NCBI GenBank assembly: GCA_016842065.1
Contig: JAEPDS010000025.1
Span: 1 to 62,353, forward strand
Reading direction: 5' to 3'
Length of the DNA stretch: 62,353 nucleotides
Source: Candidatus Thiodiazotropha sp. 'RUGA'
GTDB taxonomy: Bacteria; Pseudomonadota; Gammaproteobacteria; Chromatiales; Chromatiaceae
Each line of letters starts with the position of its first letter. Position 1 is the first letter of the stretch. Under the pieces are notes generated by a model that saw nothing but the letters and a program-made list of their open reading frames with translations, was not told where the DNA came from and ran no database searches. Below, in pieces: positions 2,070 to 17,538 of this stretch. The position numbers were made by a program, and so were the translations under genes.

Positions 2070-2637
2070 TCCTTTCCTCGGGTGTATTGATGTTCAGAAA
2101 GGTTTCAGGAATATCGGAAAAGTCGGCGGTAACCATTTTATGTTGTGCATACCAGAGATCGATTTTTCGATCACCGCCATCCAGGTAGGCGTTCAGGCTT
2201 GGTCGCAGTTTTTTGCCGATCAGGGCATACACCGGTTGCAGGCGCTTGCCGTCGTGAGCTACTGCAATGTCCGCCGCAGCGGCTTCACGCGCACTTGCCA
2301 GCCGTGCCACCAGATCTTTCGGTAGTCTGGGACCATCGCAGGGTACGGTGATCAGATTCGGGGTGGTGATCTGTTCCAGTGCGGAGTAGATGCCCGCCAA
2401 GGGACCCTGATAGCCACTCAATTCGTCCCGAATCACCGGATAACCGAACCTCTGATACTCCGCCATATTGCGGTTGGCGTTGATTAACAGCTGCCCAACC
2501 TGGGGTGCGATGGTGTTGATGACATGTTCGATCAGTGGTTTGCCATCGAGCAGGATCAGGCCTTTGTCATTGCCGCCCATGCGGCTTCCCCGGCCACCGG
2601 CCAGGATGACAGCGGTGTAATCTGAACGGTCGTTCAC
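2035..2637 (-). CDS. mobA: Molybdenum cofactor guanylyltransferase MobA
   Basis: MobA transfers GMP from GTP to molybdopterin, producing the MGD form used by DMSO-reductase-family enzymes such as the formate dehydrogenase in this window. The 200-residue product opens with the nucleotidyltransferase signature LAGGRGSRMGGNDKGL (residues 12-27). PCDGPRLP, the metal-binding aspartate region, follows at about residue 98. The start codon is GTG, and its first bases overlap the tupC stop by 4 bp, so the two genes are translationally coupled. Confidence 0.95.
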   Translation of the reverse strand: MNDRSDYTAVILAGGRGSRMGGNDKGLILLDGKPLIEHVINTIAPQVGQLLINANRNMAEYQRFGYPVIRDELSGYQGPLAGIYSALEQITTPNLITVPCDGPRLPKDLVARLASAREAAAADIAVAHDGKRLQPVYALIGKKLRPSLNAYLDGGDRKIDLWYAQHKMVTADFSDIPETFLNINTPEERNELEQPQTAEQ

Positions 2638-3347
2638 GCCGTACTCCTGAAGTTAGGGTGAGTCTGATCGAATTCGATCAGATTCTGGTTATCGATGCGG
2701 ATCAGTTTACCCTGATCCAGACGCAAGTGCTGGTCTATCAGTGAGGGGAAGTGCATAGGATCATGGCTGGCCAGCAGCATGGCTGTACCATTGCTTTTGA
2801 AAGCTTCCAGCAGACTGAGTGTGCGATGTCTCGATTCCTGGTCCAGATTGGAGGTGGGTTCATCCAGTAACAGAATGGACGGTCTCTTCAACCAGGCCCG
2901 GGCCAGGGAGACCCGCTGTTTCTCGCCTCCGGAGAGTGATTTGGCCGGAGCCTGTGACAGCTGTTTCAGGTCGGCCCACTCCAGGGCTTTGTCGATCTGT
3001 CGTTGACGCTCCCGCTTGGTCAGTTTTGCACCGATGGCATAGCCCAGGTTGTAGTTCACCGTGCCGTCAAACATATAAGGGTGTTGATGAAGATAGAGGG
3101 CATGCTGCTGCAGGGTTTTTTTGACATGGCGCCAGTTGAGCGGCCCCATACCCAGGTCGATCTGGATGCTGTCCGGTTTCTCCAGTCCAGCCAGAATACG
3201 TAACAGGGTGGTTTTACCCGCCCCATTGTCGCCACTCAACAGGTGGGTCTGTCCGGCTTGCAGGGAGAAGGTGACCTCATCCAGCACCTGCCGTTTGGCA
3301 TAGTGTTTTTTCAGGTAATGAACATTGAATTGATCTGCTGTAGTCAT
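2634..3347 (-). CDS. tupC: Tungstate ABC transporter ATP-binding protein TupC
   Basis: This is the ATPase of an oxyanion importer. It has Walker A GDNGAGKTT (about residue 39), the ABC signature LSGGEKQR (about 139) and Walker B ILLLDEPTS. Its 237 residues fit TupC-type ATPases, which lack the C-terminal molybdate-binding MOP domain of ModC. Its stop overlaps mobA, and its ATG shares a base with the tupB stop. Assignment to tungstate rather than another oxyanion rests on the TupA and TupB neighbours. Confidence 0.9.
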   Translation of the reverse strand: MTTADQFNVHYLKKHYAKRQVLDEVTFSLQAGQTHLLSGDNGAGKTTLLRILAGLEKPDSIQIDLGMGPLNWRHVKKTLQQHALYLHQHPYMFDGTVNYNLGYAIGAKLTKRERQRQIDKALEWADLKQLSQAPAKSLSGGEKQRVSLARAWLKRPSILLLDEPTSNLDQESRHRTLSLLEAFKSNGTAMLLASHDPMHFPSLIDQHLRLDQGKLIRIDNQNLIEFDQTHPNFRSTA

Positions 3348-4045
3348 CAGGCTGGTTGCCCCTTACCTTGAAAGTGCTGCAGGAAGGCATTCAGAGTGAA
3401 TGCCAGAATCAAAAGAACCAGACCCAGAGCGATACCCTGAGCGAATTCACCCTTACTCGATTCCAATGCGATGGCGGTTGGAATGTTACGGGTATAGTGG
3501 AGGATATTGCCACCAAGCATCATTGACGCCCCAACTTCGGCGATAATCCGGCCAAACGCCGCAAGCAGTGCTGCCATCAGGCCAAAACGCGCCTCCCGCA
3601 TGATGGTGATCAGCGCCCGTAGTGGTGTCGCGCCCAGAGTGCGGGCCGTCTCCCAGGCTCTGCGGTCACAGGCTTGCAGTGCCGAGTGGCCCATGGCGAC
3701 AAGAATCGGAAAGGCGAGGGCGATCTGACCAAGCACCATTGCCGTCTGAGTAAAGAGCAACTTCCACTCTCCAAGCGGACCTTGCCTGGAGAGCAGAATG
3801 AAAAGGGTCAGGCCTACTACCACGGCAGGTACTGAGAGCAGGGTACTGTTGATGGAGATCAGCAGACGTCTGCCGGGGAACTGGTAGTAGGCGAGTATGA
3901 AAGCGACCAGCAGAGCCGGTGGTGACGCCACCAGTATGGCAACCCCTGAGACCCTGAAGGAGATCGCAATGATCTCCCAGAGTTCAGAGTTACCACTGAA
4001 CAGCAACTCAAGGGCTGCCAGTGTTGTGGTGGTTAAGGAATCCAT
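3347..4045 (-). CDS. tupB: Tungstate ABC transporter permease TupB
   Basis: TupB is the membrane channel of the importer. The 232-residue protein has about five or six hydrophobic segments. Its cytoplasmic loop reads ARTLGATPLRA, followed by GRIIAEVGASMMLGGNI, the EAA-type coupling motif typical of TupB permeases. The ATG at 4045 lies 4 bp after the tupA stop and starts the family-typical sequence MDSLTTTT. A longer reading from 4114 would run 65 bp into tupA and is less likely. No strong ribosome-binding site is visible, so coupling to tupA is assumed. Confidence 0.9.
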   Translation of the reverse strand: MDSLTTTTLAALELLFSGNSELWEIIAISFRVSGVAILVASPPALLVAFILAYYQFPGRRLLISINSTLLSVPAVVVGLTLFILLSRQGPLGEWKLLFTQTAMVLGQIALAFPILVAMGHSALQACDRRAWETARTLGATPLRALITIMREARFGLMAALLAAFGRIIAEVGASMMLGGNILHYTRNIPTAIALESSKGEFAQGIALGLVLLILAFTLNAFLQHFQGKGQPA

Positions 4046-4049
4046 GTGG

Positions 4050-4898
4050 TCAGTGTTTGGTTGCGGCAAACTCTCCAGCATCAGCGGATGGTGTGAAGAG
4101 ACGGTTACTGCCAATGCGGAAGTTATTGATACGTTCCTGACCCTCCGGTGAGATCAGCCAGTGGATCAGCGCCTGGGCGCCCCGATGATTGGTGTCGGGA
4201 TAGCGCTGTGGATTTACCGCGATGATGCCATAGGGGTTGAACAGCAGGGGATCGCCCTCAAAAGCGACTTTCAGCGGAGACTTTTTCTCATACGCAAGCC
4301 ATGTTCCGCGGTCGGTTAAGGTGTAGGCATCCATTTCTGCTGCGATCTGCAGCACTTTACCCATTCCCTGGCCGGCTTCACGATACCATTGCCCTTGTGG
4401 ATCGACGGCCGCTTTTTTCCACAGTCCCAACTCTTTTTTGTGGGTGCCGGAATCATCACCGCGAGAGACGAAGATCGCCTGATGTTCGGCGATCAGTTGC
4501 AGGGCGGTGGTGGCATCCTTGGCATTTGATAAGCCAGCAGGGTCAGCTTGCGGGCCGACGATCACAAAGTCGTTGTACATCACACCGAAACGTTTTTCAC
4601 CATGACCCTGGGCGACAAATTGATCTTCGGCAGACCTGGCGTGTACCAGGACTACATCCACGTCGCCATCACGTCCCATGCGCAGTGCTTTACCGGTACC
4701 GACCGCTATCACATGGACGTTATAACCGGTGTCGGCTTGGAATTCCGGTAGCAGTTCTTTAAGCAGTCCTGAATTGTCGGTACTGGTTGTGGTGGCCAGT
4801 CGGATGATTTTGTTGGCGTCTGCATGAGCTGTGGTGAAAGGGATGAGTAGTGTCATCAACAGGAGTGTGAATAAGTGTTTCACCATATTTTTATTCAT
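4050..4898 (-). CDS. tupA: Periplasmic tungstate-binding protein TupA
   Basis: TupA captures tungstate in the periplasm and delivers it to TupBC. The 282-residue product has a Sec signal peptide ending near ALA-like TAHADA. The anion-binding motif LATTTSTDNSGLL follows, then VGTGKALRMGRDGDVDV and FVSRGDDSGTHKKE, all typical of TupA/WtpA-like oxyanion-binding proteins. The ATG at 4898 is chosen because AGG lies 9 bp upstream; an in-frame ATG at 4913 would add five residues. It heads the operon and is preceded by a canonical sigma54 promoter at 5105-5120. The leader is long, roughly 190 nt. Confidence 0.93.
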   Translation of the reverse strand: MNKNMVKHLFTLLLMTLLIPFTTAHADANKIIRLATTTSTDNSGLLKELLPEFQADTGYNVHVIAVGTGKALRMGRDGDVDVVLVHARSAEDQFVAQGHGEKRFGVMYNDFVIVGPQADPAGLSNAKDATTALQLIAEHQAIFVSRGDDSGTHKKELGLWKKAAVDPQGQWYREAGQGMGKVLQIAAEMDAYTLTDRGTWLAYEKKSPLKVAFEGDPLLFNPYGIIAVNPQRYPDTNHRGAQALIHWLISPEGQERINNFRIGSNRLFTPSADAGEFAATKH

Positions 4899-5104
4899 TG
4901 GGAGTTGCCTCATTGCGGTATAAATTTTGTGTCACTGAATCGTCCGTAAGAAGGGTGGGTACAGCGATTGATCGGGCTATGTTGCTTAACAAAAACATAA
5001 TTTAAGTGTGTTTTATTTCTTTTCAGCAGACTTAAACAGTAGTGTGCAACCATTGAACAAATGCCTAAAAAGTCACTCCTTATCTCTGGCTGCGAGGATT
5101 TAAT

Positions 5105-5120
5105 TGCAAGAGTGGTGCCA
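5105..5120 (-). promoter_or_regulatory. Sigma54 (-24/-12) promoter of the tupABC-mobAB-moeA operon
   Basis: On the minus strand this reads TGGCACCACTCTTGCA, a perfect match to the sigma54 consensus TGGCAC-N5-TTGCA with 10 bp between GG and GC. It points at tupA. It lies about 150 bp downstream (in tup orientation) of a pair of 16-bp sites expected for an enhancer-binding protein. The divergently transcribed neighbour encodes exactly that class of activator. Confidence 0.88.
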
Positions 5121-5146
5121 CTCTTATCTGGGAAAGTTGTCATGGT

Positions 5147-5187
5147 ATTTGCAATAGCAAATGGACCTGTATTGTCTACTATGTAGA
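5147..5187. promoter_or_regulatory. Two small palindromes between the tup promoter and activator sites
   Basis: ATTTGC-AATA-GCAAAT (5147-5162) and TCTAC-TAT-GTAGA (5175-5187) are perfect short inverted repeats. They lie between the sigma54 promoter and the upstream 16-bp sites. They could be operators for a second regulator, for example the HTH/PBP protein at 11664-12578. No second copy was noticed in the window, so the function is unassigned. Confidence 0.35.
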
Positions 5188-5266
5188 TAATGGCAGGATT
5201 ATAAACACAATTTCTGCATTCTTTAGCTGTCGGTTTCTCCCTGTGCTGTTCAAGGGAGTCCAAAAT

Positions 5267-5317
5267 TGAGACAAATGGTCCCAGATTGACACACTTTTTA
5301 TTGGACATTTTGTCTCA
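5267..5317. promoter_or_regulatory. Paired upstream activator sites for the sigma54 regulator
   Basis: Two 16-bp sites face each other. The site at 5267-5282, read on the minus strand, is GGGACCATTTGTCTCA; the site at 5302-5317, on the plus strand, is TGGACATTTTGTCTCA. Their outer halves form a 9-bp inverted repeat (TGAGACAAA / TTTGTCTCA). Related copies lie in the fdh/moaA intergenic region (14651-14666 and a weaker one at 14619-14634). Their position, 150-200 bp from the -24/-12 element, suits enhancer-binding protein sites. Confidence 0.7.
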
Positions 5318-5434
5318 CTCAGCCGTCGGTGGATTGCCTTGATAGAACAGTACTCAATGAACATTAAAACTGAAGAGCTTGTGGTTCGGGATGAGTCCAC
5401 GAGCGTTTACCACAAGGAAGGTACATCCAGCCGA

Positions 5435-6769
5435 ATGACCTCGGTGCTCATCGTAGACGATGAACCGGGTATCCTCAGCTTTTTACAGAAAGGGTTGAGA
5501 CGCCATTTCGGGCTGGTGGAAACTGCCAAGGATGTCGCCACAGCCGAAGAGCTGCGTAAACACTGCCATTTTGATCTGATCATTACCGACATTCGCCTGC
5601 CGGGACACCGGGGTGGCGTTGAGTGGGTAAGAGAGTTGCGAGAGCAGGGTGGGACCACCGGGGTGATCTTCATGACCGCCCATGCAGATCTGGAGACGGC
5701 CATCTCTGCGCTTAGAGCCGGTGCCGAGGATTTCATCATGAAACCGTTCCGTATGGAGCAGATGGTGGCATCCGTCGAGCGCTATCTGGATCGACAGAAG
5801 ATGCAGCGTGAGAACTTCGTGTTGCGACGCCAAGTCGATCAGATCTATGACAGCTCCGGCATCGTTGGTGAGTGCCAGCAGATGCATGCCTTGTGTGAAG
5901 TGGTCAAACGGGTGGCTCCGATGCCATCCACGGTGTTGATCGAAGGTGAATCGGGCACCGGTAAGGAGCTGGCTGCCCGGGCGATACACGACTTAAGCAA
6001 CCGCTCTGGCAGTTTTGTACCGGTCAACTGTGGCGCGATGAGTGCCGAGCTGTTGGAGAGTGAGCTGTTCGGCCATGTAAAAGGCGCCTTCACCGGCGCT
6101 CATCTCTCCCGGGATGGACTGTTTACCTACGCCAATGGAGGGACCCTGTTCCTTGATGAGATTGGTGAGATGCCTCTCTCGATGCAGGCTCACCTGTTGC
6201 GCTCCCTTGAAGAGCGCACCATCCGTCCTGTCGGCTCCAATCGGGAAGTCCCTGTCGATGTAAGGATCATCGCCGCCACCAACCGGGATCTGGGTAATGA
6301 GGTACAAAAAGGGGAGTTCCGTGAAGATCTCTACTATCGGCTCAATGTACTGACGCTGCGTATGCCAGCCTTAAGGGAGCGAAGTGAGGATATACCGCTG
6401 CTGGCCAACCACTTCATGCATACACTGGCTTCCGACCTGGGGATCGATGTCCCGGTATTGGGGGAGAACGAGATCGAATTGCTGATGCACTACGAATGGC
6501 CTGGAAACGTGCGGGAGTTGAAGAATGTGATTGAGCGTTGTCTGCTGTTGAATCGTTCGCCAAGTCTTTGCATTACCGCTACTGAGCAACAGGATGGTGA
6601 GACGACAACTGAGCAATCGGAAGCTTCATTGCAGCTTGAGGCCGTTGAGAAAAGGCATATCCTGAAGGTGCTTGACCTTCATGGGGGTAATAAATCGGCT
6701 GCAGCCCGGGTGTTGGGAATTTCGCGCAAGACACTTGAACGTAAAGCACAGGCCTGGGGAATCACCTGA
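5435..6769 (+). CDS. Sigma54-dependent response regulator (NtrC family)
   Basis: This 444-residue activator has three parts. A receiver domain has the phospho-acceptor Asp52 in LIITDIRLPG and conserved Lys103. An AAA+ domain has Walker A GESGTGKE (171-178) and the sigma54-contact loop GAFTGA (217-222). A Fis-type helix-turn-helix (KSAAARVLGISRKTLERK) sits at the C-terminus. The ATG at 5435 begins the receiver domain and has AGGAAG upstream, though spaced about 14 nt. An earlier in-frame ATG at 5357 would add 26 unconserved residues. The partner kinase follows 4 bp downstream. It is divergent from tupABC, and its likely targets are the sigma54 promoters near 5105, 14550 and 14741. Confidence 0.92.
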   Translation: MTSVLIVDDEPGILSFLQKGLRRHFGLVETAKDVATAEELRKHCHFDLIITDIRLPGHRGGVEWVRELREQGGTTGVIFMTAHADLETAISALRAGAEDFIMKPFRMEQMVASVERYLDRQKMQRENFVLRRQVDQIYDSSGIVGECQQMHALCEVVKRVAPMPSTVLIEGESGTGKELAARAIHDLSNRSGSFVPVNCGAMSAELLESELFGHVKGAFTGAHLSRDGLFTYANGGTLFLDEIGEMPLSMQAHLLRSLEERTIRPVGSNREVPVDVRIIAATNRDLGNEVQKGEFREDLYYRLNVLTLRMPALRERSEDIPLLANHFMHTLASDLGIDVPVLGENEIELLMHYEWPGNVRELKNVIERCLLLNRSPSLCITATEQQDGETTTEQSEASLQLEAVEKRHILKVLDLHGGNKSAAARVLGISRKTLERKAQAWGIT

Positions 6770-6773
6770 GTCC

Positions 6774-8843
6774 GTGTTGAAACTGATCCGTACCATCCAG
6801 AGCACCCTGCGTTATAAAATGCTGGTGCTGGTACTGTTTCCGATTCTTCTGATCATGCCGATTGCGCTTGGGCTGGCCATCTACTGGGGCTCACAGTTCA
6901 GTTATGATCAGCTGTTTATCAAGGTCAATACGGATCTCTCCGTGGCTGAGGACAACTTTCACCGTCTGCAGCAGGATTATCTGAATACCCTGGCCCGCCT
7001 GGCTGAGTCCTATACGTTCAATACCGCACTGGAATCGAAAAGTGGTGGCGTGATCCATCAACAGCTGGAGAAGATCCGGCAACAGAACGATTTTTCCTAT
7101 CTGCATCTGCTCGGTTTGGATGGCAGGATCACTTTTACCACCGACGCCGAACTGCCTCAGCGAGCCCATCCCTCTCCCTCGCTATTGATCGCCCTGCAGG
7201 GAACGCCGAAAGTGGAGATTGAAATATTTTCTGCTGAAGCGCTTGAAACCCAATCCCGAGGTTTGGCAGACAAGGTTGCACTGCCATTGCTTGAAACCCC
7301 CAGAGCCAGACCGACGGATCAGCAGGTGGAAGAGCGGGGGATGATGATCAGGGCGCTCTATCCGGTGAAGAACTCAAGAGGGGGGGTGGTGGCGATACTC
7401 GATGGCGGGGTGTTGCTGAATGGTAACTTCAAGTTCGTCGATACCATCAGGGATCTTGTCTATGGTCCAGGCAGTCTGCCTGAGGGCAGCATCGGTACAG
7501 TAACGGTGTTTCTCGATGATGTGCGTATCACTACCAATGTGCCACGCGCCGCGAATGAGAGGGCACTGGGTACCCGGGTTTCTGATGAGGTGCGAACCCA
7601 GGTGCTGGAGCATGGCAAAAAATGGATCGATCGGGCGTTTGTGGTGAATGATTGGTATATCTCCGCTTACCAACCGATTGTCGATGTGAATGGCGAGCGG
7701 GTCGGCATGCTGTATGCCGGTTTTCTTGAGGCGCCGTCGCGTAATGCGCTCTGGCAGGCGTTGCTGGTGCTGATCCTGCTTTTTCTGGCGTTGATGCTGT
7801 TATCCTCGCTACTCTCCATCAGGGGGGCAAAATCGATATTCAAGCCTCTGGAAATGATGATGAACGTGGTTCGTGCCACCCGTGAAGGCTATACCAGGCG
7901 TATTGGTCAGGTCTCGTCCACCGATGAGATTGGTGTTCTGGCGAAAGAGTTTGATCTGTTGTTGGATCTTCTGCAGCAGCGTAACCGTCAGATGCTGGAG
8001 TGGACGGATCAGTTGGAGGAGAAGGTGGAGGAGCGAACAACGGAATTGAAGTTGAAGAATGAGCGATTGCTGAGCATGATTCAAACTCTCAAGGAGACCA
8101 GGGCTCAGTTGATCAACGCGGAGAAGCTGGCTGCACTCGGGGAGCTGACGGCAGGGGTCGCGCATGAGATCAACAACCCGACCGCGGTAATGCTAGGTAA
8201 CCTGGATCTGTTGGTAGCCGAGCTGGGCAAGGATGCCGAACCGGTAAAAGAGGAGATCGATCTGGTGATTGAGCAGATCTTCCGCATCAAGGATATTATC
8301 AACAGTCTGCTGCAGTACGCCCGCACCGATCAGATGAGCGGTGAGGCCGCCTATACCGACGTCAACAGAGTGATTGAGCACACTTTGGTTTTGGTGCGAC
8401 ATCTGCGTAGCAAGAGCGATTTTGAAATCAATCTGGATCTTAAGGCGACCAGACAGGTGAAGATCAACTCCCAGGAGCTACAGCAGGTGTTGGTCAATCT
8501 GGTGGTGAATGCGGTCCATGCACTGCATCAGCAGGATGGCGAGATTAGCCTGCGCAGTTCCGACTGGGAGAATAAAGGCGTCGTGATCGAAGTGATTGAC
8601 AATGGCAGTGGGATTGCACCGCAAAGACTGGGTTCCATCTTCAATCCATTCAACAGTGGTAAGCCGACCGGTGAGGGTACCGGTCTTGGGCTTTCGGTCA
8701 GTTACAGCCTGATCAAAAAATATGGTGGCGAGATCGGGGTCAGCTCTGAGTTGGGTAAGGGCTCTGTCTTTACCATCTGGCTCTATCGGGAGGCCGATAT
8801 GGTTGATGATGAGAAGAGCTTGTCCGAGCATTATAATTATTAG
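6774..8843 (+). CDS. Membrane sensor histidine kinase (partner of the NtrC-type regulator)
   Basis: This 689-residue kinase has a transmembrane helix near residues 15-37 and a large periplasmic region resembling a double-Cache sensor (about 40-325). A second helix (about 327-350), HAMP and a coiled coil (LEEKVEERTTELKLKNERLL) follow. The HisKA motif is GELTAGVAHEINNP, with N box NLVVNAVHAL and G boxes DNGSGI and GEGTGLGLS. The start is a GTG 4 bp after the regulator stop; a TTG lies one codon later. An open frame extending back to 6672 is inside the regulator gene. The signal is unknown; formate, tungstate or another small anion would be plausible from context. Confidence 0.9.
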   Translation: MLKLIRTIQSTLRYKMLVLVLFPILLIMPIALGLAIYWGSQFSYDQLFIKVNTDLSVAEDNFHRLQQDYLNTLARLAESYTFNTALESKSGGVIHQQLEKIRQQNDFSYLHLLGLDGRITFTTDAELPQRAHPSPSLLIALQGTPKVEIEIFSAEALETQSRGLADKVALPLLETPRARPTDQQVEERGMMIRALYPVKNSRGGVVAILDGGVLLNGNFKFVDTIRDLVYGPGSLPEGSIGTVTVFLDDVRITTNVPRAANERALGTRVSDEVRTQVLEHGKKWIDRAFVVNDWYISAYQPIVDVNGERVGMLYAGFLEAPSRNALWQALLVLILLFLALMLLSSLLSIRGAKSIFKPLEMMMNVVRATREGYTRRIGQVSSTDEIGVLAKEFDLLLDLLQQRNRQMLEWTDQLEEKVEERTTELKLKNERLLSMIQTLKETRAQLINAEKLAALGELTAGVAHEINNPTAVMLGNLDLLVAELGKDAEPVKEEIDLVIEQIFRIKDIINSLLQYARTDQMSGEAAYTDVNRVIEHTLVLVRHLRSKSDFEINLDLKATRQVKINSQELQQVLVNLVVNAVHALHQQDGEISLRSSDWENKGVVIEVIDNGSGIAPQRLGSIFNPFNSGKPTGEGTGLGLSVSYSLIKKYGGEIGVSSELGKGSVFTIWLYREADMVDDEKSLSEHYNY

Positions 8844-8851
8844 GACCCGTT

Positions 8852-8876
8852 GGCTAAACCGGCCGGAAGTTTAGCC
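8852..8876. other. Hairpin after the kinase gene
   Basis: GGCTAAAC and GTTTAGCC form a perfect 8-bp stem around a 9-nt loop containing CCGGCCGG. No T-run follows, so it is not a clear rho-independent terminator. It may mark the 3' end of the regulator-kinase transcript. Confidence 0.4.
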
Positions 8877-8945
8877 GAAGTGGATAATCCAGGATGCTTA
8901 AATGCTCATCAAGAAATACATTACAAATAAAACCTATAACTGACT

Positions 8946-9479
8946 ATGAATAACATGCTACTTCAATTGATCGTCAAAGCCTTGGCGTTCTCTGCCCAAA
9001 AGCATCGGGATCAGCGACGTAAGGATGTGCAGGAGACCCCCTATGTCAACCACCCCATCAGCTTGATGGATATCCTGGTGAATGAAGGGGGTGTGTATGA
9101 TACAGAGACGCTGATAACCGCCTTACTGCATGATACGATTGAGGATACGGAGACGACCTTTGAAGAGATCGAAATCGAGTTCGGATTGGTGATCGCCAGC
9201 CTGGTGATGGAGGTATCTGACGATCAATCCCTCTCCAAGCTTGAGCGCAAAGCGATGCAGATACACCATGCCCCGAATCTCTCTGAAAAGGCCAAGCTGG
9301 TAAAGTTGGCTGACAAAATCGCCAATCTGCGGGATATCGCCCATAGTCCCCCGAAAGGTTGGGACCTGTCCCGACGACAGGCCTATTTCGATTGGGCCAA
9401 GGATGTTATCGATGGCTTGAGAGGCGCCCACCAGGGTCTCGAGTTGCTGTTCGATGACGCCTACAGCAAACGACCCTGA
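8946..9479 (+). CDS. Small HD-domain phosphohydrolase (SpoT/MESH1-like)
   Basis: The 177-residue protein carries the metal-binding HD pattern of the RelA/SpoT hydrolase fold: a leading His (SAQKHRDQRRK), YVNHPISL, then ALLHDTIEDTETT with the HD pair and ED motif, and LVKLADKIANLRD. The full protein is just this domain, with no synthetase or TGS part. It may therefore be a small alarmone hydrolase or a related nucleotide phosphohydrolase. It sits between the two-component genes and moaB. No evidence ties it to cofactor synthesis except position. Confidence 0.8.
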   Translation: MNNMLLQLIVKALAFSAQKHRDQRRKDVQETPYVNHPISLMDILVNEGGVYDTETLITALLHDTIEDTETTFEEIEIEFGLVIASLVMEVSDDQSLSKLERKAMQIHHAPNLSEKAKLVKLADKIANLRDIAHSPPKGWDLSRRQAYFDWAKDVIDGLRGAHQGLELLFDDAYSKRP

Positions 9480-9527
9480 TGAGTTTGCCAGTCCGTCAGG
9501 GCATCAGGTGTAAGCGACGCTTGAGTT

Positions 9528-9541
9528 CTGATCTTGATCAA
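9528..9541 (+). promoter_or_regulatory. FNR/ANR-like site upstream of moaB
   Basis: CTGAT-CTTG-ATCAA matches the FNR consensus TTGAT-N4-ATCAA at 9 of 10 positions. It lies about 85 bp before the moaB ATG, a distance compatible with a -41.5 activator site and a short leader. This suggests oxygen-responsive control of moaB. Confidence 0.5.
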
Positions 9542-9618
9542 GGCAATGTGCTTTGCAGCTGGCATGCTATCGACTGTTTTTTCCTGATGAATAGAATGAG
9601 ATCCACGGAGCCTACAAC

Positions 9619-10140
9619 ATGAGTGACGAACGTCAGTTTATCCCTTTGAATATCAGCGTTATGACTGTATCGGACAGTCGAACGGAAGAGAATGACAAAT
9701 CCGGCCAAAAGCTCAAGAGCATGCTGGAAGAGGCTGGGCATAAGCTGGCCGACAAACGCATCGTGAAAGATGATCGCTATCAGATCAGAGCGGTGATCTC
9801 CGAGTGGATTGCCAATCCGGATGTTCAGGTGATTATCACCACCGGTGGTACGGGACTGACAGGAAGAGACGGAACACCGGAAGCGGTCGAACCTCTGTTG
9901 GATAAGATCATCAACGGTTTTGGTGAGATGTTCCGCTCACTCTCCTATGAGATCATCGGCACATCGACCATGCAGTCCCGGGCGATCGCCGGTGTTGCCA
10001 ATGGTACCTTTGTCTTTTGTCTGCCGGGTTCAACCGGCGCCTGTAAGGATGGCTGGAGTAAATTGATCTCCGCGCAACTCGATTACCGGACACAACCCTG
10101 CAATCTGGTGGAGCTGATGCCCAGATTATTGGAGAAATAG
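9619..10140 (+). CDS. moaB: Molybdenum cofactor biosynthesis protein MoaB
   Basis: MoaB-family proteins adenylylate molybdopterin before metal insertion, or in some bacteria are paralogues of that enzyme. The 173-residue protein has the MPT-binding motif ITTGGTGLTGRDGTPEA (about residues 74-90). It also has LSYEIIGTSTMQSRAIAG and FCLPGSTGACKDGW. A GGAG sequence lies shortly upstream of the ATG. It is separate from the two other cofactor loci in the window but complements moaA, mobAB and moeA. moaC, moaD and moaE are not present here. Confidence 0.93.
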   Translation: MSDERQFIPLNISVMTVSDSRTEENDKSGQKLKSMLEEAGHKLADKRIVKDDRYQIRAVISEWIANPDVQVIITTGGTGLTGRDGTPEAVEPLLDKIINGFGEMFRSLSYEIIGTSTMQSRAIAGVANGTFVFCLPGSTGACKDGWSKLISAQLDYRTQPCNLVELMPRLLEK

Positions 10141-10304
10141 TTTTTCCATAGCAACTTGAATTTGATCGATAGGATACTGGCGGATTGATTTCAGTTGGTT
10201 TCTCGAGACTGTCGAGGTTTGTGACGTCAACAGAGACAAACAAGCAGACGATGACAGTTAAGAACGACCAATCATCAGGGTGTAAGCAGATCGAGAGATT
10301 AACT

Positions 10305-10485
10305 CCCCTCTCCCCTTGCGGGAGAGGGGCCGGGGGAGAGGGGGATTCTCCATCAGCATCCTCCTCAATCTAAGCAATACCCCATACATGTATCGTTGAG
10401 TGAGTGCAATTTACACTTCTATCGCATCACTCGTTTGATGCTCACTCTCTCCCCAACTCCTCTCCCATCAAGGGAGAGGGGCTTT
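10305..10485. repeat. Two CCCCTCTCCC-type hairpins between moaB and the MITE
   Basis: CCCCTCTCCC-CTTGC-GGGAGAGGGG (10305-10329) is a perfect 10-bp stem. A second, similar hairpin with an ATCAA loop lies at about 10457-10481 and is followed by CTTTTA, so it may terminate moaB transcription. Hairpins of this composition recur in many proteobacterial intergenic regions. The bases between them show no gene. Confidence 0.55.
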
Positions 10486-10505
10486 TATACATCTCCTCAG
10501 CTAGC

Positions 10506-10792
10506 TAGGGCCTGTTAAGACTAATCCAATGCGCCCTGTTGCGCCTGAAAAAGCGCCAATCAAGGCGCGAGGAGTGAGGTTTGGTGATTCCAAATGAACG
10601 ACGAGCAACGGTTCGTGGCGCTTTTTCAGGCGCGCCCCCCCATATTGATATTTAAGAGGGGGCTGGGGCTATTTTTCCGCCCAGCGGCGTTATCATTCGC
10701 TCATGTAGAATGACTACACGACGCTCATTCTGCCTTGCTGGACACAAAAACAGACCCAGCAGGGCGTATTGGATTAGTGTTAACAGGCCCTA
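10506..10792. mobile_element. MITE-like element with 33-bp inverted ends flanked by TA
   Basis: The left end (from GGGCCTGTTAAGACTAATC) and the right end (to GATTAGTGTTAACAGGCCC) are inverted repeats matching at about 31 of 33 positions. TA is present at both outer boundaries, as expected for IS630/mariner-type target duplication. The 283-bp interior has further palindromes and no transposase. A partial copy lies at 1-97, and isolated ends lie at 30501-30511 and 42781-42800. The right boundary supplies the TAG stop of the gene at 10790-11221. Confidence 0.8.
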
Positions 10793-11221
10793 GACTCCAC
10801 TGATTATATTGAGGAAAAAAAACAGTAGTACAAAAAAGCCGCCGACGATCATCCAGGTTCGGTTCCAGATGGCGTGGCGACGTTTGAGTTGTGCTGTTTC
10901 CGCATCGATCGCGACCCTTGTCTGAGTGTCTATGCTGGGATCGATCCACACCTGTTGATGGCTCAGATCATCCGATTCCACAGCAGAGATGGCATGGGAG
11001 ACTTCGGTTTTGTAGAGTCGGCTGTCCAGGTCGACCAGTCTGTTGTGAAGCTGGTTGTGCATGTGCATCAGCGCGGCTTCGATATCATCGAAACGGGCGA
11101 TGTAGCGGATCTCGGAGCCCGCTTCAGATTCCTGGGTATTCGGCAGCTCATCTCTGATCCTGGCTCTGATCATGCCGACGTGATCAGGGTGGGTTTCCAG
11201 TACCAGATAACCTGTTTTCAT
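10790..11221 (-). CDS. Tail-anchored-like membrane protein of unknown function
   Basis: I do not recognise this 143-residue protein. It starts MKTGYLVLETHPDHVGMIRARI and is mostly charged and helical, with a likely coiled coil around IARFDDIEAALMHMHNQLHNRL. It ends in one hydrophobic helix (WMIVGGFFVLLFFFLNIISG), suggesting a cytosolic domain anchored by its C-terminus. The start at 11221 is chosen over 11344 because the first 41 residues of the longer frame look random. Its TAG stop lies on the boundary of the adjacent MITE, so the original C-terminus may have been slightly longer. Confidence 0.6.
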   Translation of the reverse strand: MKTGYLVLETHPDHVGMIRARIRDELPNTQESEAGSEIRYIARFDDIEAALMHMHNQLHNRLVDLDSRLYKTEVSHAISAVESDDLSHQQVWIDPSIDTQTRVAIDAETAQLKRRHAIWNRTWMIVGGFFVLLFFFLNIISGV

Positions 11222-11382
11222 AATATGGCCTGTCGATTCAGAAAGCGGCAACGATGAGTGGATGAGTCCATCATACCACTGACTCTTTTTACAGGTGAAG
11301 TCGTGGGCCAGCTGGAGATCAGAACATTGGCCTGTATTGGACACATAATAGCGTAATCTCTGCTCAGTGAAGAAGAGAAAAT

Positions 11383-11629
11383 AGTCCGCGAATGAACGCG
11401 AATGAACGCAAATCGAGAAGAGGGATTTGGTGTGATTGAGTGCAGCTGTTCTGTTGTGACTTAAGCAAGCAGAGATCGATATAACTTTCGTTCTGGTGCC
11501 GTTTGGGGCGAACAGAAATTAACGCTTCATATCCCTCGATTTCATTGGGGTCACGACGTGTGAGTATCAGAGCAGATTTGCCAGAGTAACAACAAACCAT
11601 TTGCGTTTATTCGCGTTCATTCGCGGACT
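11383..11629. repeat. Second MITE-like element with 31-bp inverted ends
   Basis: The ends at 11383-11413 and 11599-11629 are inverted repeats identical at 30 of 31 positions, each carrying an internal near-tandem GAATGAACGC. They enclose about 185 bp without a convincing gene. A 78-codon open frame on the minus strand has no family features and is not called. The ends are unlike those of the 10506-10792 element. Together with its flanks this fills the gap 11222-11663. Confidence 0.75.
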
Positions 11630-11663
11630 TTTTTATTCTTAAAGACTTTTCGAAACAGACAGG

Positions 11664-12578
11664 CTACTCATCCCCCCACACCAGCTCACCCGCTTCACTC
11701 AGATCATAGCCCCCAAGGCGCTCGCCCATGGCCTGGCAGTCGGCTGAGCGCAGACGATTGATCAGATCCTGGAACAAACGACGGAACCAGATGTTTCTCG
11801 GCAGCGCCAGATCGAAGGACTCCCAACCGAAGGGTATGAAATCGAGGCCATACTCTTGCGCAGCGGCGCGCGCACCGGGTGCGGCATCGGTCTGATTCAT
11901 GGCGATACTGGCGGCCGCTTCGCGCTCCGACAGGGCGGTGCAGACCGAGTTCAACTGTTCGATATTGACATTGTGTTGGCTGAGTACTTCGAGCAGAAAA
12001 CGTTGTGCACCGGCACCGCTTTGTCGCATTGCCCAGCGGTGGTTGCCCTCCAGCAGGGTTTTGGTGTCCGGCCTGAGTTCACCCAGTGTGCGATTGACCA
12101 TCAAACCCTGTTCCCGACGAAACAGACGAATCAGTACCCATTGTCGGAACTGGGGGTATTGACGTAACAGGGCCGGGTGGCGGGTGTTGCTCTCCTGGTT
12201 GGGACCCCAGTGTATCCCACAGGCATCGATGCGGTTCGCCTGAAGCAGATCAAGGCCGAGTCGGGTACCTGTCGGTGAGTAGCTGATCAGGGCATGGGCG
12301 CCGGTCTCCTGGGCAAAATTCATGATCAATCGATAGAGTAGGGGATCGTCACTGCCGGCAATCACGAGCCGGTTGGTCATCAGGCCGCCATGGGCGGAAT
12401 CAAGCATCCAGCGATCCACCAGTTCTCTCGGAAACAGCCACTTGCCGGTAATTTTGGTTGCCGGAATACGCTCCTCGTTGACCAGAGAGTAGATCTTCTT
12501 CTCGTTAAGGTGCAGGTATTCAGCAACCTGTTTTACGTTCATGAATACATGCTGGTCTTGCGAGATCACTGCAGCCAT
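11664..12578 (-). CDS. HTH regulator fused to a periplasmic-binding-like domain
   Basis: The 304-residue protein begins with an excisionase/MerR-like helix-turn-helix (VKQVAEYLHLNEKKIYSLVNEERIPATKITGKWLFPRELVDRW pattern, about residues 12-55). A PBP-like domain follows (from about 65) with SDDPLLYRL, YSPTGTRLGL, GIHWG and FIPFGWESFDL. Such fusions are known as PBP_like (PF12727-type) regulators and are often linked to molybdate or tungstate genes. It has no signal peptide, so it would sense a cytoplasmic ligand. The ATG at 12578 has AGGAGAGG just upstream. It follows fdhD by 16 bp in the moaA-fdhD operon. Confidence 0.85.
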   Translation of the reverse strand: MAAVISQDQHVFMNVKQVAEYLHLNEKKIYSLVNEERIPATKITGKWLFPRELVDRWMLDSAHGGLMTNRLVIAGSDDPLLYRLIMNFAQETGAHALISYSPTGTRLGLDLLQANRIDACGIHWGPNQESNTRHPALLRQYPQFRQWVLIRLFRREQGLMVNRTLGELRPDTKTLLEGNHRWAMRQSGAGAQRFLLEVLSQHNVNIEQLNSVCTALSEREAAASIAMNQTDAAPGARAAAQEYGLDFIPFGWESFDLALPRNIWFRRLFQDLINRLRSADCQAMGERLGGYDLSEAGELVWGDE

Positions 12579-12594
12579 ATCCTCTCCTTTATTT

Positions 12595-13479
12595 TCAACT
12601 CTTGGCGTGTTCCACCGGTTTCTTCTGGTTGGTCTGATAACGCACCGGCGGTATGGCATCAAAAGTAATATTCTCTGCCCCGTTATAGATTAAAAAGTGT
12701 TTACCCTTGGCCCTTGCGATCAGGGTTACACCGATACGTTTGGCCAGTTCCACGCCCATCTGGGTGGCGCCTGAGCGGGAGAGCAGGAGGGGGATGCCCA
12801 TCTGCGCGACCTTGATCACCATCTCCGAGGTCAGTCGGCCGGTGGTGTAGAAGAGCTTGTCCCTGCCCGGAATAGAATCAAGCAGCATGTTGCCGGCGAT
12901 CGCATCTACTGCATTGTGTCGTCCCACATCCTCGATGAACAGCAGGATTTCGGCCCTCCGGCAGAGCGCACAGCCATGCACAGCTCCGGCACGCTGGTAG
13001 ACTTCATTGTAGCTGCTGAGATTCTTCAGCAAGGCATAGATGCCGGATTGCAGATGGGTGGATTGCGGCAGTTCGATTTTATCCAGATCCTCCATCAGAT
13101 CACCGAAAACCGTGCCCTGGCCACAGCCGGTGGTGACCGTCTTACGAGCAGTTTTCTGTTGCAGATCCGGAATGCCGTCAAAGGTTGTGACAGCCGCCGA
13201 TTCAGTCTCCCAATCCACCTGGATGGCTTTCACCTGATCGATCGTCTTGATCAGTCGCTGGTTGTGCAGCCAGCCCAATACCAGCATCTCCGGGCGGGTA
13301 CCGAGGGTCATCAGAGTGACGATCTCCTGTTTATCCAGATAGACGGTCAGCGCCCGCTCTGCAGCTACCCGACCTCGGCGTATCTCACCGTATTCATCCA
13401 CCGCAGTGGCAGGGTGGGCGGCACTCAGGCCGGCATCGGTAAGCTGTGGGCGATGAGTGTACTCATTTGCCTTGTTCAT
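12595..13479 (-). CDS. fdhD: Formate dehydrogenase accessory sulfurtransferase FdhD
   Basis: FdhD passes sulfur to the molybdenum/tungsten centre of formate dehydrogenase, which is essential for its activity. The 294-residue product shows GCALC with the two functional cysteines in the loop AVHGCALCRRAEI. FIEDVGRHNAVDAIAGNM, YTTGRLTSEMVIKVAQMGIP and SRSGATQMGVELA follow. The ATG at 13479 follows GGAGG on the moaA end; a start at 13506 would overlap moaA. Its operon with moaA, divergent from the fdh structural operon, fits its role. Confidence 0.95.
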   Translation of the reverse strand: MNKANEYTHRPQLTDAGLSAAHPATAVDEYGEIRRGRVAAERALTVYLDKQEIVTLMTLGTRPEMLVLGWLHNQRLIKTIDQVKAIQVDWETESAAVTTFDGIPDLQQKTARKTVTTGCGQGTVFGDLMEDLDKIELPQSTHLQSGIYALLKNLSSYNEVYQRAGAVHGCALCRRAEILLFIEDVGRHNAVDAIAGNMLLDSIPGRDKLFYTTGRLTSEMVIKVAQMGIPLLLSRSGATQMGVELAKRIGVTLIARAKGKHFLIYNGAENITFDAIPPVRYQTNQKKPVEHAKS

Positions 13480-13489
13480 TGCGGTCACC

Positions 13490-14512
13490 TTATCCTCCGG
13501 TAACATTCATATGCCGGAACAGCACCGGTTGGCTGCTGAGGTCAAACTCATGTCCTTTGGGTTTGATCTCCATGGCATCGATGATGGCTTGACGCAAGGG
13601 GGCATCATCCAGCGGATTGGCCCGTACCACACGGCGCAGATCCATGGAGTGCTCCTGACCCAGACAGAGCAGCAATCGGCCTTCTGCCGTTAAGCGCACC
13701 CGGTTGCAGTGATCACAGAAGTTGTGGCTGTGGGGTGAGATGAATCCCACCCGGCTTTGCGAACCGTTGAGGCGATAGTAGCGGGCCGGGCCACCGGTGG
13801 TTTCGGTGGTTGGAATCGTTTCGTAGTGTTGCTGGATATCCTGCAGAACCTGGTCACTCGAGTAGAAGACCTGTTGCCGATCATGATCGTTGATTACACC
13901 AAGGGGCATCTCTTCGATGAAGCTGATGTCCATGCCGCGGGTTTCAGCAAAACGGACCAGATCGACCACTTCATCATGGTTGCGATCTTTCAGAATCACC
14001 GTGTTGATCTTCAGGCGTTTGAAACCGGCCTCCAGTGCGGCATCGATACCGTTCAGGGTGCGTTGAATATCGCCAACCCGGGTCATTTCGTGGAAACGAT
14101 CCGCCTGCAAGGTATCCAGACTGATGTTGATCCGGCTAACACCAGCGGTCTTCAGGGCCTTGGCATAGCGGGTCAGCTGGGTGCCATTGGTGGTCAGGGT
14201 CAGGTCTTTCAGGCCGGGAAGCCTGCCGAGTGCCTGAAACAGCTGCATGATGCCCCGTCGGGTCAAGGGCTCGCCACCGGTAATGCGGATCTTGTTGACC
14301 CCCATTTCGACAAAATTACTGGCCACCCGGTAGAGCTCTTCCAGGGTCAGTAACTGGGTTCTGGGGACAAACTTCATATCTTCAGACATGCAGTAGACAC
14401 AGCGTAGATCACACCGGTCGGTGACCGAGATACGCAGATAGGTGACTTGACGATTGAAACGGTCGGTCAGGCGATGGGTTTCAGCAGCCGGTTTATTGTT
14501 TGTTTCGGGCAT
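13490..14512 (-). CDS. moaA: GTP 3',8-cyclase MoaA
   Basis: MoaA is the radical SAM enzyme that converts GTP towards cyclic pyranopterin phosphate, the first step of molybdopterin synthesis. The 340-residue protein has the radical SAM triad CDLRCVYC (residues about 34-41) and GGEPL. The second cluster is bound by CDHCNRVRLTAEGRLLLC. It ends in the functional GG dipeptide. It heads a minus-strand operon with fdhD and the HTH/PBP regulator. A -24/-12-like element lies at 14550-14566, and activator-like sites at 14619-14666 are shared with the divergent fdh operon. Confidence 0.96.
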   Translation of the reverse strand: MPETNNKPAAETHRLTDRFNRQVTYLRISVTDRCDLRCVYCMSEDMKFVPRTQLLTLEELYRVASNFVEMGVNKIRITGGEPLTRRGIMQLFQALGRLPGLKDLTLTTNGTQLTRYAKALKTAGVSRINISLDTLQADRFHEMTRVGDIQRTLNGIDAALEAGFKRLKINTVILKDRNHDEVVDLVRFAETRGMDISFIEEMPLGVINDHDRQQVFYSSDQVLQDIQQHYETIPTTETTGGPARYYRLNGSQSRVGFISPHSHNFCDHCNRVRLTAEGRLLLCLGQEHSMDLRRVVRANPLDDAPLRQAIIDAMEIKPKGHEFDLSSQPVLFRHMNVTGG

Positions 14513-14549
14513 TGATTAGGGTCTCTCCAACAAGCGCTTGTACTCTATA

Positions 14550-14566
14550 GGCAAAAGTCATACCGG
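14550..14566 (-). promoter_or_regulatory. Possible sigma54 promoter for moaA-fdhD
   Basis: On the minus strand the sequence CCGGTATGACTTTTGCC places GG and GC exactly 10 bp apart, as sigma54 requires. Only part of the -24 hexamer matches. It is weaker than the tup and fdh elements, but its position and orientation are right. It shares the intergenic activator sites at 14619-14666. Confidence 0.55.
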
Positions 14567-14618
14567 ATCTCGATAGCCTGTTTGAGGCCCATGCTGCGTA
14601 GGCTCACAGCCGGGTGGT

Positions 14619-14666
14619 GGTATTAAATGTCTCACTCTGTGAATAAGAACGGGACATTTTGCCCTG
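14619..14666. promoter_or_regulatory. Activator sites between the fdh and moaA operons
   Basis: GGGACATTTTGCCCTG (14651-14666) matches the sites near tupA closely (GGACATTTTG is identical to 5303-5312). A second candidate at 14619-14634 ends in TGTCTCA but its left half is degenerate. They lie between two divergent -24/-12 elements, about 75-100 bp from each, the usual layout for an NtrC-type activator. Confidence 0.65.
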
Positions 14667-14740
14667 TTTTGCCACAGCTCCATTTTTTGGATTATTTTCC
14701 GGCGCCATGAATTCTCTGCCGATTTTCCCCATCGGCTTTC

Positions 14741-14755
14741 TGGTACATAACTTGC
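14741..14755 (+). promoter_or_regulatory. Sigma54 promoter of the formate dehydrogenase operon
   Basis: TGGTACATAACTTGC matches the sigma54 consensus with one transition in the -24 box and the exact 10-bp GG-to-GC spacing. It lies about 40 bp before the ATG at 14794, leaving a short leader with GGAGG at 14781-14785. Its presence also argues that translation does not start at an upstream in-frame ATG (14659). Confidence 0.85.
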
Positions 14756-14793
14756 GATTCACTCCAGAAGGTTTCTATCTGGAGGTATCGAGC

Positions 14794-15309
14794 ATGTTTT
14801 CATCACAGAAGAGAATTGGTGACGACCTGCCCCGGGAGTTCTCGCTATCGGTGATTATGCAGAAGTCACCCAGCACCAATCGGTGGCAGCCCTATCAATG
14901 GGAAGCGGTAGGTGTGCTGGCAACCGGTGAAAAGGCCAATCCGAAACAGGCGGAGATGATTTATGAGCAGCAGGAGACCAGTCGTTACCTCCACAGCGGT
15001 TTCAAGCTCAGGCTGCATGAAGATGAGTGCGAGAGCTATTACCACAATCTGCTCTCTGCAAATCCCTGCTGTTATGTGGTTGCCGATATGTCGGATGACG
15101 GTACACCATCCCCCTTCATGGTGAGTTTCAGTTTTGATGAGGCTCATGCCTATCTGGAGGGTGATGAGGAAATCTATGCCGTTGCGGTTCCGGCTGAGAT
15201 CTATCAATGGGCTGAGGCCTTTGTACTTGCCCACTATGTGCCGACCAAGCGCAGCAAACGCAAACGGGCGGATTGGCGTGAATCCGAGAGGGGCTCTCAT
15301 GGAGCCTAA
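14794..15309 (+). CDS. DUF3305 protein (formate dehydrogenase cluster)
   Basis: DUF3305 proteins are found almost only in formate dehydrogenase clusters beside DUF3306 and a polyferredoxin; their function is not established. The 171-residue product has the family feel of PREFSLSVIMQKSPSTNRWQPYQWEAVGV, then EECESYYHNLLSANPCCYVV-like segments and a basic tail (KRSKRKRADWRE). It is soluble with no signal peptide. The ATG at 14794 is set by GGAGG eight bases upstream and by the sigma54 promoter at 14741. The 3' end overlaps the next gene by 11 bp. It may be an assembly factor. Confidence 0.85.
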   Translation: MFSSQKRIGDDLPREFSLSVIMQKSPSTNRWQPYQWEAVGVLATGEKANPKQAEMIYEQQETSRYLHSGFKLRLHEDECESYYHNLLSANPCCYVVADMSDDGTPSPFMVSFSFDEAHAYLEGDEEIYAVAVPAEIYQWAEAFVLAHYVPTKRSKRKRADWRESERGSHGA

Positions 15310-15835
15310 TGAAAAAAAGCCTCTGGATGAACGGCGAGACAGCCGTGACGAGAGTTTTATCAGACGCTGGTCGGATCGAAAACTGGCCTCTCAGCAACCT
15401 TTGGTTGAACAGGCCGAAGCAGAACAAACACTGGACCAGCCCTGTGATGAGGATATGCCACCTCTGGAGTCGCTCGACGACTCCTCCGACTACAGCGGTT
15501 TTCTCTCTCCCAAAGTCTCAGAGCCGCTGCGCAAGATGGCTTTGCGCAAACTCTTCCACGGCAGTGATTTCAATCTCTGTGACGGCCTGGATGACTATGC
15601 GGAGGACTTCACCACGTTCGAAGCCCTGGGGGATGTGATCACGGCCGACCTAAAGCATCAGCTTGAGATGCAAGAGCAAAGAGAAGCAGAGCGGCAGGAG
15701 CAGGCAGAAGCAGAGCCGGTTGAGTCCGATGCGACAGCTTTGCAAAGCGATGATCAAACCTCAACAGAGGATCCGCATCCGCTTACTGAACAACAACTGC
15801 CCAATGATGATGACAATCGAGAGATCCCCTCATGA
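15299..15835 (+). CDS. DUF3306 protein (formate dehydrogenase cluster)
   Basis: The 178-residue protein is acidic and contains the DUF3306 core: SFIRRWSDRK, then SDYSGFLSPKVSEPLRKMALRKLFHGSDFNLCDGLDDYAEDFTTFEALGDVI in pattern. A low-complexity Glu/Gln-rich tail follows. The ATG at 15299 overlaps the DUF3305 stop; open sequence further upstream is out of context. Its ATGA overlap with the next gene shows tight coupling. The role is unknown; such proteins may help load or hold the catalytic subunit before Tat export. Confidence 0.83.
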   Translation: MEPNEKKPLDERRDSRDESFIRRWSDRKLASQQPLVEQAEAEQTLDQPCDEDMPPLESLDDSSDYSGFLSPKVSEPLRKMALRKLFHGSDFNLCDGLDDYAEDFTTFEALGDVITADLKHQLEMQEQREAERQEQAEAEPVESDATALQSDDQTSTEDPHPLTEQQLPNDDDNREIPS

Positions 15836-17508: not shown

Positions 17509-17538
17509 CTTGCAATTGCTTTATCCGAGGAGCGTGTG

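Follow-up and report, generated by a model that had tools for sequence, protein, structure and literature searches.

We consider it probable (roughly 85%) that a single NtrC-type response regulator in a Candidatus Thiodiazotropha genome would govern a narrow sigma54 regulon, which matches tungstate uptake and cofactor assembly to a periplasmic tungsten-dependent formate dehydrogenase. The analysed DNA of Candidatus Thiodiazotropha sp. 'RUGA', called the window here, is a single 62-kb contig (62,353 bp; JAEPDS010000025.1) of a 4.77 Mb genome. Between about 0.2 and 24 kb it contains moeA-mobB-mobA-tupC-tupB-tupA on the minus strand, the genes of the regulator and a kinase followed by HD and moaB-type genes on the plus strand, PBP/HTH-fdhD-moaA on the minus strand, and finally DUF3305-DUF3306-Fe-S-torD-fdhABC with a membrane anchor on the plus strand. 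An earlier note on this DNA had proposed one regulon for tup, the cofactor genes and fdh. This proposal is supported by operators and sigma54 promoters that are kept at both loci in several genera, by displaced tup genes that retain both elements and by the co-occurrence of the regulator. The argument is built on sequence comparison, namely on predicted operators and promoters, their conservation and phasing, the co-occurrence with the regulator and the joint evolution of kinase and receiver.

Predicted operators and promoters in the window

The near-palindrome first reported as a 16-bp motif was lengthened by one base to 17 bp and has a consensus of about TGGGACATTTTGTCCCA; we call it the upstream activating sequence (UAS). 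Each of the two divergent intergenic regions carries two helically phased copies, and -24/-12 elements lie nearby, with mismatches counted against TGGYAY-N5-TTGCW:

5267..5283, minus strand: UAS 1, predicted regulator operator, matrix rank 1 of the window
5301..5317, plus strand: UAS 2, 34 bp from UAS 1 (spacing conserved), matrix rank 2
14618..14634, plus strand: UAS 3, weak copy, matrix rank 5, aligns with a conserved site in relatives
14650..14666, plus strand: UAS 4, 32 bp from UAS 3, matrix rank 3
5105..5120, minus strand: -24/-12 element facing the tup operon, TGGCACCACTCTTGCA, TGGCAC-N5-TTGCA, no mismatch
14741..14756, plus strand: -24/-12 element facing the formate dehydrogenase operon, TGGTACATAACTTGCG, 1 mismatch
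14550..14565, minus strand: weak -24/-12 element facing moaA-fdhD, CGGTATGACTTTTGCC, 2 mismatches

All four palindrome copies that the earlier note had placed in the two intergenic regions were recovered, and its three -24/-12 elements are present with 0, 1 and 2 mismatches. The distance from UAS centre to -24 is about 156 and 190 bp for tup, 84 and 116 bp for fdh and 62 and 94 bp for moaA; measured values of 62-190 bp thus fall within or near the 75-200 bp originally given.

To train the weight matrix, 47 sites in 27 regions from other genera were used. The consensus that seeded it had been written with knowledge of the reported sites and the dyads, so that the matrix is not blind to them. 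With this out-of-genus matrix the four reported sites took ranks 1, 2, 3 and 5 of the 62,353-bp window. Rank 4 is a chance match at 20672 with a score of 13.9, close to the 14.7 of the fdh site, which would therefore not stand out alone. Ten column-permuted matrices served as control: at a threshold of 17 the real matrix gave 2 sites and each permuted one 0, at 15 the numbers were 2 and 0-1, and at 13 they were 4 and 0-4.

Conservation in relatives

The kinase query against 194 genomes of the family gave 36 matches at E<=1e-60, own genome included. Four of them (G070, G101, G122, G147) match the kinase core alone and were not counted as orthologues, leaving 32. Thirty loci were annotated (29 fetched stretches plus L057), and the order of the cluster is the same in most of them. 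Two sets of intergenic regions, window included, were compared: set A with 27 regions between tup/mob and the regulator, and set B with 18 regions between moaA and DUF3305, the window's genus supplying 11 A and 7 B regions.

When all 4+4 dyads were counted, those of the -24/-12 element came first (25/27 regions in A, 14/18 in B). The dyad GACA-1-TTTG, which is part of the UAS, is present in 11/27 A and 13/18 B regions (shuffle maxima 7 and 4), and CAAA-1-TGTC in 13/18 B regions (shuffle maximum 4) and in 24/45 regions of both sets (shuffle maximum 8); since the regions are related by descent, these counts are not independent events, and the ranking by the out-of-genus matrix is the stronger evidence.

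The spacing of the two copies is strongly constrained, with 33-34 bp in all 14 two-site A regions and 32-33 bp in all nine two-site B regions; 32-34 bp corresponds to about three turns of DNA. Measured from the centre of the best UAS, the distance to the -24 is 94-203 bp on the tup/mob side (25 regions) and 62-135 bp on the fdh side (15 regions). A UAS scoring at least 13 together with a -24/-12 element facing tup/mob was found in 25/27 A regions, and a UAS of at least 12 with an fdh-side element (at most one mismatch) in 15/18 B regions. A minus-strand element on the moaA side (at most two mismatches) is present in 17/18 B regions. In the alignment of 15 moaA-DUF3305 sequences both UAS copies, weak and main, and the -24/-12 element form conserved blocks among the rows listed.

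Genome-wide search and displaced genes

The own genome contains 33 perfect -24/-12 sites. Of these, 30 were scanned from 40 to 350 bp upstream and tup alone has a UAS, the next best score being 12.0 (full matrix). Sixteen loci with the motif at no more than two mismatches were fetched (L090-L105); only the two tup loci among them have a -24/-12 element (at most one mismatch, within 400 bp). Many unlinked copies of the motif, which the earlier note had named as an argument against its proposal, were thus not encountered together with promoters. A wider regulon was rejected because tup is the only UAS-bearing case among 30 of the 33 perfect sites; weaker promoters of the fdh kind were not searched genome-wide.

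In G082, where tup is displaced and follows moaB and moeA, it keeps a UAS of 17.9 with a perfect -24/-12 element; in G191 tup and the regulator are on different contigs, and tup keeps a UAS of 20.5, again with a perfect element. Formate dehydrogenase clusters located away from the regulator retain the UAS in G007, G096, G118, G192, G046, G061 and G172; the scanned stretch did not reach the promoter in G007, G096, G118 and G192. Neither UAS nor -24/-12 element accompanies the divergent tup copies of G108, G159, G171 and G011, and both are also missing from the tup-fdhD-DUF3305 clusters of G059 and G115, which are without the orthologous regulator. Fifteen of 17 tup regions in regulator-less genomes have no UAS of at least 13, the exceptions being G041 (UAS 13.5 with a one-mismatch promoter) and G086 (UAS 18.0, no promoter).

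The genus g4 shows a different arrangement (L074-L077, L088), in which mobB is divergent beside the regulator and tup is found on other contigs, so the cofactor genes and not the importer remain at the regulator. The mobB adjoining the regulator has a UAS and a -24/-12 element in G061, G095, G117, G135 and G172.

Co-occurrence of regulator, DUF3305 and operator

Within the family, matches of at least 545 bits were taken as the orthologous regulator, the next group beginning at 507. It was found in 44/194 genomes, 40 of which also encode DUF3305 (45/194 genomes in total). In the sample of the class Gammaproteobacteria, with a regulator threshold of E<=1e-140, the regulator is present in 22/369 genomes, spanning 19 families, and DUF3305 in 43/369. 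DUF3305 accompanies the regulator in 21/22 genomes and occurs in 22/347 genomes without it (Fisher p 2e-21, without correction for phylogeny).

Outside the family, 41 genomes have DUF3305. The matrix trained on the family was applied to the 450 bp upstream of the gene in 40 of them, G207 being excluded because no alignment was possible. A UAS of at least 13 lies upstream of DUF3305 in 14/18 regulator-bearing and 6/22 regulator-lacking genomes (p 0.004). The latter six include G255 and G544, with a linked divergent regulator below the threshold that has the same recognition helix, and G491, with a regulator fragment at a contig edge; the other three are G291, G517 and G400. Moving these three after the fact gives 17/21 versus 3/19. 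Upstream of the regulator itself a UAS of at least 13 was present in 13/20 class-level stretches, one of which measures just 20 bp. Operators and regulator thus mostly go together across the class, but the match is not perfect, with exceptions such as G291, G517, G400 and G286.

In the divergent linked regulator of G544 (L372) the GAFTGA position reads DACAGA (alignment row L310), possibly an altered sigma54 contact or a misalignment.

Gene content and the metal

The genes of the locus and one additional promoter-like element are the following:

209..2637, minus strand: moeA, mobB and mobA, cofactor assembly at the end of the tup operon (Pfam MoeA_N/MoCF_biosynth/MoeA_C, MobB, NTP_transf_3; same order in most relatives)
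2634..4913, minus strand: tupC, tupB and tupA, tungstate-type ABC importer (NCBIfam tung_bind_TupA and tung_perm_TupB below cut-offs; PDB 3muq/3lr1)
5339..6769, plus strand: NtrC-type response regulator (Pfam receiver, sigma54 AAA+, Fis-type helix-turn-helix, HTH); true start uncertain, an ATG near 5435 is possible
6672..8843, plus strand: membrane sensor histidine kinase with periplasmic Cache-type domain (Pfam sCache_3_3, HisKA, HATPase_c); start uncertain
8946..10140, plus strand: HD-domain protein and moaB/mogA-type protein (Pfam HD_4, MoCF_biosynth)
11664..12662, minus strand: PBP_like + HTH_17 protein, second candidate regulator (Pfam; genome distribution)
12595..14512, minus strand: fdhD and moaA (Pfam FdhD-NarQ; Radical_SAM and Mob_synth_C)
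14794..18204, plus strand: DUF3305, DUF3306, Fe-S protein and TorD-type chaperone (Pfam; ATG at 14794)
17499..17514, plus strand: further -24/-12-like element, 37 bp before the torD open reading frame, TGGTCCACGGCTTGCA, 1 mismatch
18482..24141, plus strand: formate dehydrogenase with FdhA, FdhB (FDH3 beta), cytochrome b subunit and membrane anchor (PDB 9vap, FDH3_beta, FDH-gamma)

In the window no UAS scoring at least 10 lies within 400 bp of the element before torD. Such elements (at most one mismatch, within 400 bp) are found upstream of torD in 21/31 distinct loci, and a UAS of at least 13 in 4/31 (L186, L367, L370, L375); thus some lineages are likely to have a fourth sigma54 promoter. Control of the locus by RNA was rejected, since the window has no Rfam match at gathering score, Moco/Tuco (molybdenum/tungsten cofactor) RNA included.

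FdhA, which has a twin-arginine motif (MSRRSFLR) near its N-terminus, matches SoFdhA of Shewanella, its closest solved relative, over residues 26-965 (PDB 9vap, 1520 bits). The beta subunit scores 338 bits on the FDH3 model NF038355 (cut-off 240), as an FDH3/SoFdhAB-type enzyme should; FDH-gamma is above its cut-off and the TmcC-type anchor below. SoFdhAB is listed as a Cys-W enzyme in a 2026 review (PMC13397495), and by analogy tungsten would sit at the active site of FdhA. It is unlikely that importer and enzyme take molybdate or either metal, making this a molybdenum rather than a tungsten regulon. Such a reading would fit the importer scores, which are all below the NCBIfam equivalog cut-offs (TupA 247/400, TupB 200/320, TupC 106/400 bits), and the presence of mobB next to the regulator with tup on another contig in G061, G095 and G117. 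However, the closest solved relatives of TupA include 3lr1, a named tungstate-binding protein (E 1e-81), and the nearest solved relative of FdhA uses tungsten.

Points against a shared regulon and the identity of the binding protein

Several observations weigh against one regulon under this regulator. Three draft genomes (G291, G517, G400) have the UAS and no regulator was found in them; in G291 and G517 the contig that carries the cluster is without it. Four regulator-bearing genomes (G260, G406, G502, G286) have no UAS of at least 13 at DUF3305: in G260 and G502 UAS and promoter are located upstream of the regulator instead, in G406 upstream of torD, and G286 has no UAS in either region tested. 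G494, counted as lacking the regulator, has a 457-bit match that shares the helix, but its UAS scores only 11.1. In genus g4, with the regulator present, the displaced tup genes of G061, G095 and G172 have a UAS without a -24/-12 element (at most one mismatch), and those of G117, G135, G003, G149 and G162 have neither. In the own genome the bare motif (at most three mismatches) occurs 172 times versus 280 for the reversed control, i.e. it is rarer. The AlphaFold model of the kinase sensor is weak (mean pLDDT, its per-residue confidence score, 63) and Foldseek matched it to generic Cache/PAS-type sensors alone (KinD, DctB, DcuS, CitA), so that formate is a presumed signal. Finally, in the 40 class-level DUF3305 regions the PBP_like + HTH_17 protein (at least 240 bits) accompanies 17/20 UAS-bearing and 4/20 UAS-lacking ones.

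This last distribution raises the question of which protein binds the palindromes. The response regulator of the window has the domains of the NtrC family (receiver, sigma54 AAA+, Fis-type HTH; Pfam) as well as the GAFTGA loop, the phosphoacceptor Asp, the acidic pair and the Lys. The orthologues read, the most distant with 45% overall identity, have the recognition helix NKSxxARxLG[IV][SA]RKTL[ED]RK in common. Among the other matches listed it is missing from 17/18 distinct ones, the exception being G494, in a comparison that did not include the family's 484-507-bit group.

The PBP_like + HTH_17 protein beside fdhD might be the binder, with the response regulator acting elsewhere. It consists of a PBP_like domain fused to an excisionase-type HTH and is perhaps an oxyanion or cofactor sensor. 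This protein is conserved in the cluster, and in the same 40 regions the regulator has a comparable distribution, with 14/20 UAS-bearing (17/20 if the three divergent or fragmentary ones are added) and 4/20 UAS-lacking regions; in addition, G291 and G517 combine the UAS with the PBP_like + HTH_17 protein, the regulator not being found. Against it stand G254 and G110 (both 99% complete), which have the UAS, the regulator and the kinase and lack this protein (E<=1e-30), as does G476 (72% complete). Moreover, a sigma54 activator usually has its palindromes in pairs ahead of -24/-12 promoters, which is the layout of the UAS pairs with their spacing of 32-34 bp. We thus prefer the response regulator as UAS binder, and binding by the PBP_like + HTH_17 protein is disfavoured and appears improbable. 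That the sites at 5267-5317, which are just 20-70 bp upstream of the regulator reading frame as called, serve autoregulation only, the shared regulon being a proximity effect, is very improbable, since the conserved -24/-12 element there faces tup/mob in 25/27 regions and an element with at most one mismatch faces the regulator in 2/27, and since displaced tup genes (G082, G191) retain both UAS and promoter.

Kinase and receiver

The kinase of the window shares 98% identity with those of a gill symbiont of Stewartia floridana and of Candidatus Thiodiazotropha taylori, which marks the organism as a lucinid symbiont of the Thiodiazotropha type. Its H-box reads AHEINNP, and its sensor is a Cache-type domain (Pfam) between two membrane segments, which were assigned from model and sequence. 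The earlier note had ascribed control to one two-component pair. The response regulator proved constant; the pair did not, since the kinase was not found (E<=1e-60) in 16/44 regulator-bearing family genomes. Gaps may account for some of these absences, since seven of the 16 genomes are less than 85% complete; nine are at least 90% complete. Among the latter is G136, from the window's genus, in which the regulator adjoins the HD gene with no kinase in between.

Receivers were read in 60 genomes, 43 with and 17 without the kinase; the kinase-less family genomes G001, G003, G072, G130, G134 and G191 were left out. Acidic pair, acceptor Asp and Lys are intact in 43/43 kinase-bearing and in 3/17 kinase-less genomes (G083, G136, G207), the receiver of G162 being cut at one position. 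The acceptor Asp is replaced in 5/17 kinase-less genomes (G011, G048, G248, G388, G439; p 0.001). Receiver and adjacent kinase thus evolve together, which argues that the kinase is the partner of the regulator where it is present.

A UAS of at least 13 is kept at one or more promoters in 12/13 genomes with a degraded receiver, the exception being G048. Kinase-less loci in which receiver residues are mostly degraded and operators mostly kept are L182, L183, L184, L186, L187, L189, L191, L306, L371, L298, L296, L299 and L372. Since most operators are kept where the receiver residues are lost, in such genomes the regulator is probably independent of this phosphorylation step. Three of them can be paired with a genome of the same genus that has the kinase and an intact receiver: G011 with G097 (in which the regulator is read as two fragments), G113 with G046 and G149 with G061. 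Judging from these pairs rather than from a tree, function of kinase and receiver was probably lost more than once, and in some lineages the switch appears to have outlived its sensor.

It might be, at slightly less than even odds, that one sigma54 activator serves tungsten supply, cofactor and enzyme across the Gammaproteobacteria, and that the phosphorylation switch was dropped several times, the receiver losing its phosphorylation residues once the kinase was gone while recognition helix and operators were kept. Input would then be independent of phosphorylation, for example through a ligand or partner sensed by the remodelled receiver.

Proposed mechanism and significance

In the mechanism that we propose, the Cache-type kinase would sense a periplasmic signal, presumably formate or a related small carboxylate; formate would fit a periplasmic formate dehydrogenase. 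The kinase would phosphorylate the response regulator, which would then bind the paired, helically phased palindromes of both divergent intergenic regions. Activation rather than repression is assumed, with sigma54 RNA polymerase being switched on at three promoters together. The target operons would be tupABC-mobAB-moeA, moaA-fdhD(-PBP/HTH) and DUF3305-DUF3306-FeS-torD-fdhABC, and metal uptake, pterin cofactor assembly and the periplasmic tungsten formate dehydrogenase would be made jointly.

Tungsten-dependent formate metabolism thereby gains a testable master switch with defined predicted operators, and the locus illustrates how a cell could couple the uptake of a rare metal to the demand of one enzyme. 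For Thiodiazotropha symbionts formate is a suspected energy source (PMC11171427). The pairs G046/G113, G061/G149 and G097/G011 offer a route to ask how a response regulator becomes independent of phosphorylation, and candidate promoters can now be named for work on relatives of the oxygen-tolerant SoFdhAB.

Comparison with known systems

Tandem palindromes upstream of -24/-12 promoters are typical of NtrC-family systems. NtrBC, ZraSR and AtoSC likewise combine a receiver, a GAFTGA-containing AAA+ domain and a Fis-type HTH with a membrane kinase. However, the regulator of the window is far below the NCBIfam equivalog cut-offs for these systems (best AtoC, 423/714), and the content of the regulon differs. 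ModE and TunR also tie oxyanion uptake to metal-cofactor metabolism; they are one-component, metal-binding regulators and are not known to work through sigma54. FhlA, a formate-sensing sigma54 activator of fdhF/hyc, is similar in activating a formate dehydrogenase with maturation genes. It is not known as a two-component regulator, we know of no tungstate uptake or tungsten cofactor genes under its control, and the regulator of the window scores 291/830 bits on the NCBIfam FhlA model, below the equivalog level.

Parts of this arrangement have been described elsewhere, here cited from the portions of each source that were available. The fdnG operon of Geobacter sulfurreducens is RpoN-dependent and, like the one described here, is a sigma54-dependent formate dehydrogenase operon with fdhD, but in that text no tungst- term occurs and no shared activator is given (PMC2725144). 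In Methylorubrum extorquens a moeA1-mobB-tupBCA cluster serves a tungsten formate dehydrogenase, so that tungstate importer and tungsten cofactor genes are clustered as in the window, however no regulator is named (PMC13197769); its Me-FDH1 is a tungsten-dependent heterodimeric formate dehydrogenase (PMC13396061). SoFdhAB of Shewanella oneidensis (9VAP) shares the FdhA match, and its source is silent on regulation (PMC13397495). A sigma54 regulome of D. vulgaris contains no tungst- or molybd- term (PMC4641369), and a cross-bacterial sigma54 survey lists formate dehydrogenases among the targets (PMC12316311). Formate use in Thiodiazotropha is described in two papers (PMC11171427, PMC6712303), without mention of a regulator of this kind. 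The literature search, which had most subscription journals outside its scope, gave no description of this regulon in any of the results listed. The regulon is of a known kind, an NtrC-type two-component regulon, and as far as searched it is new in its content.

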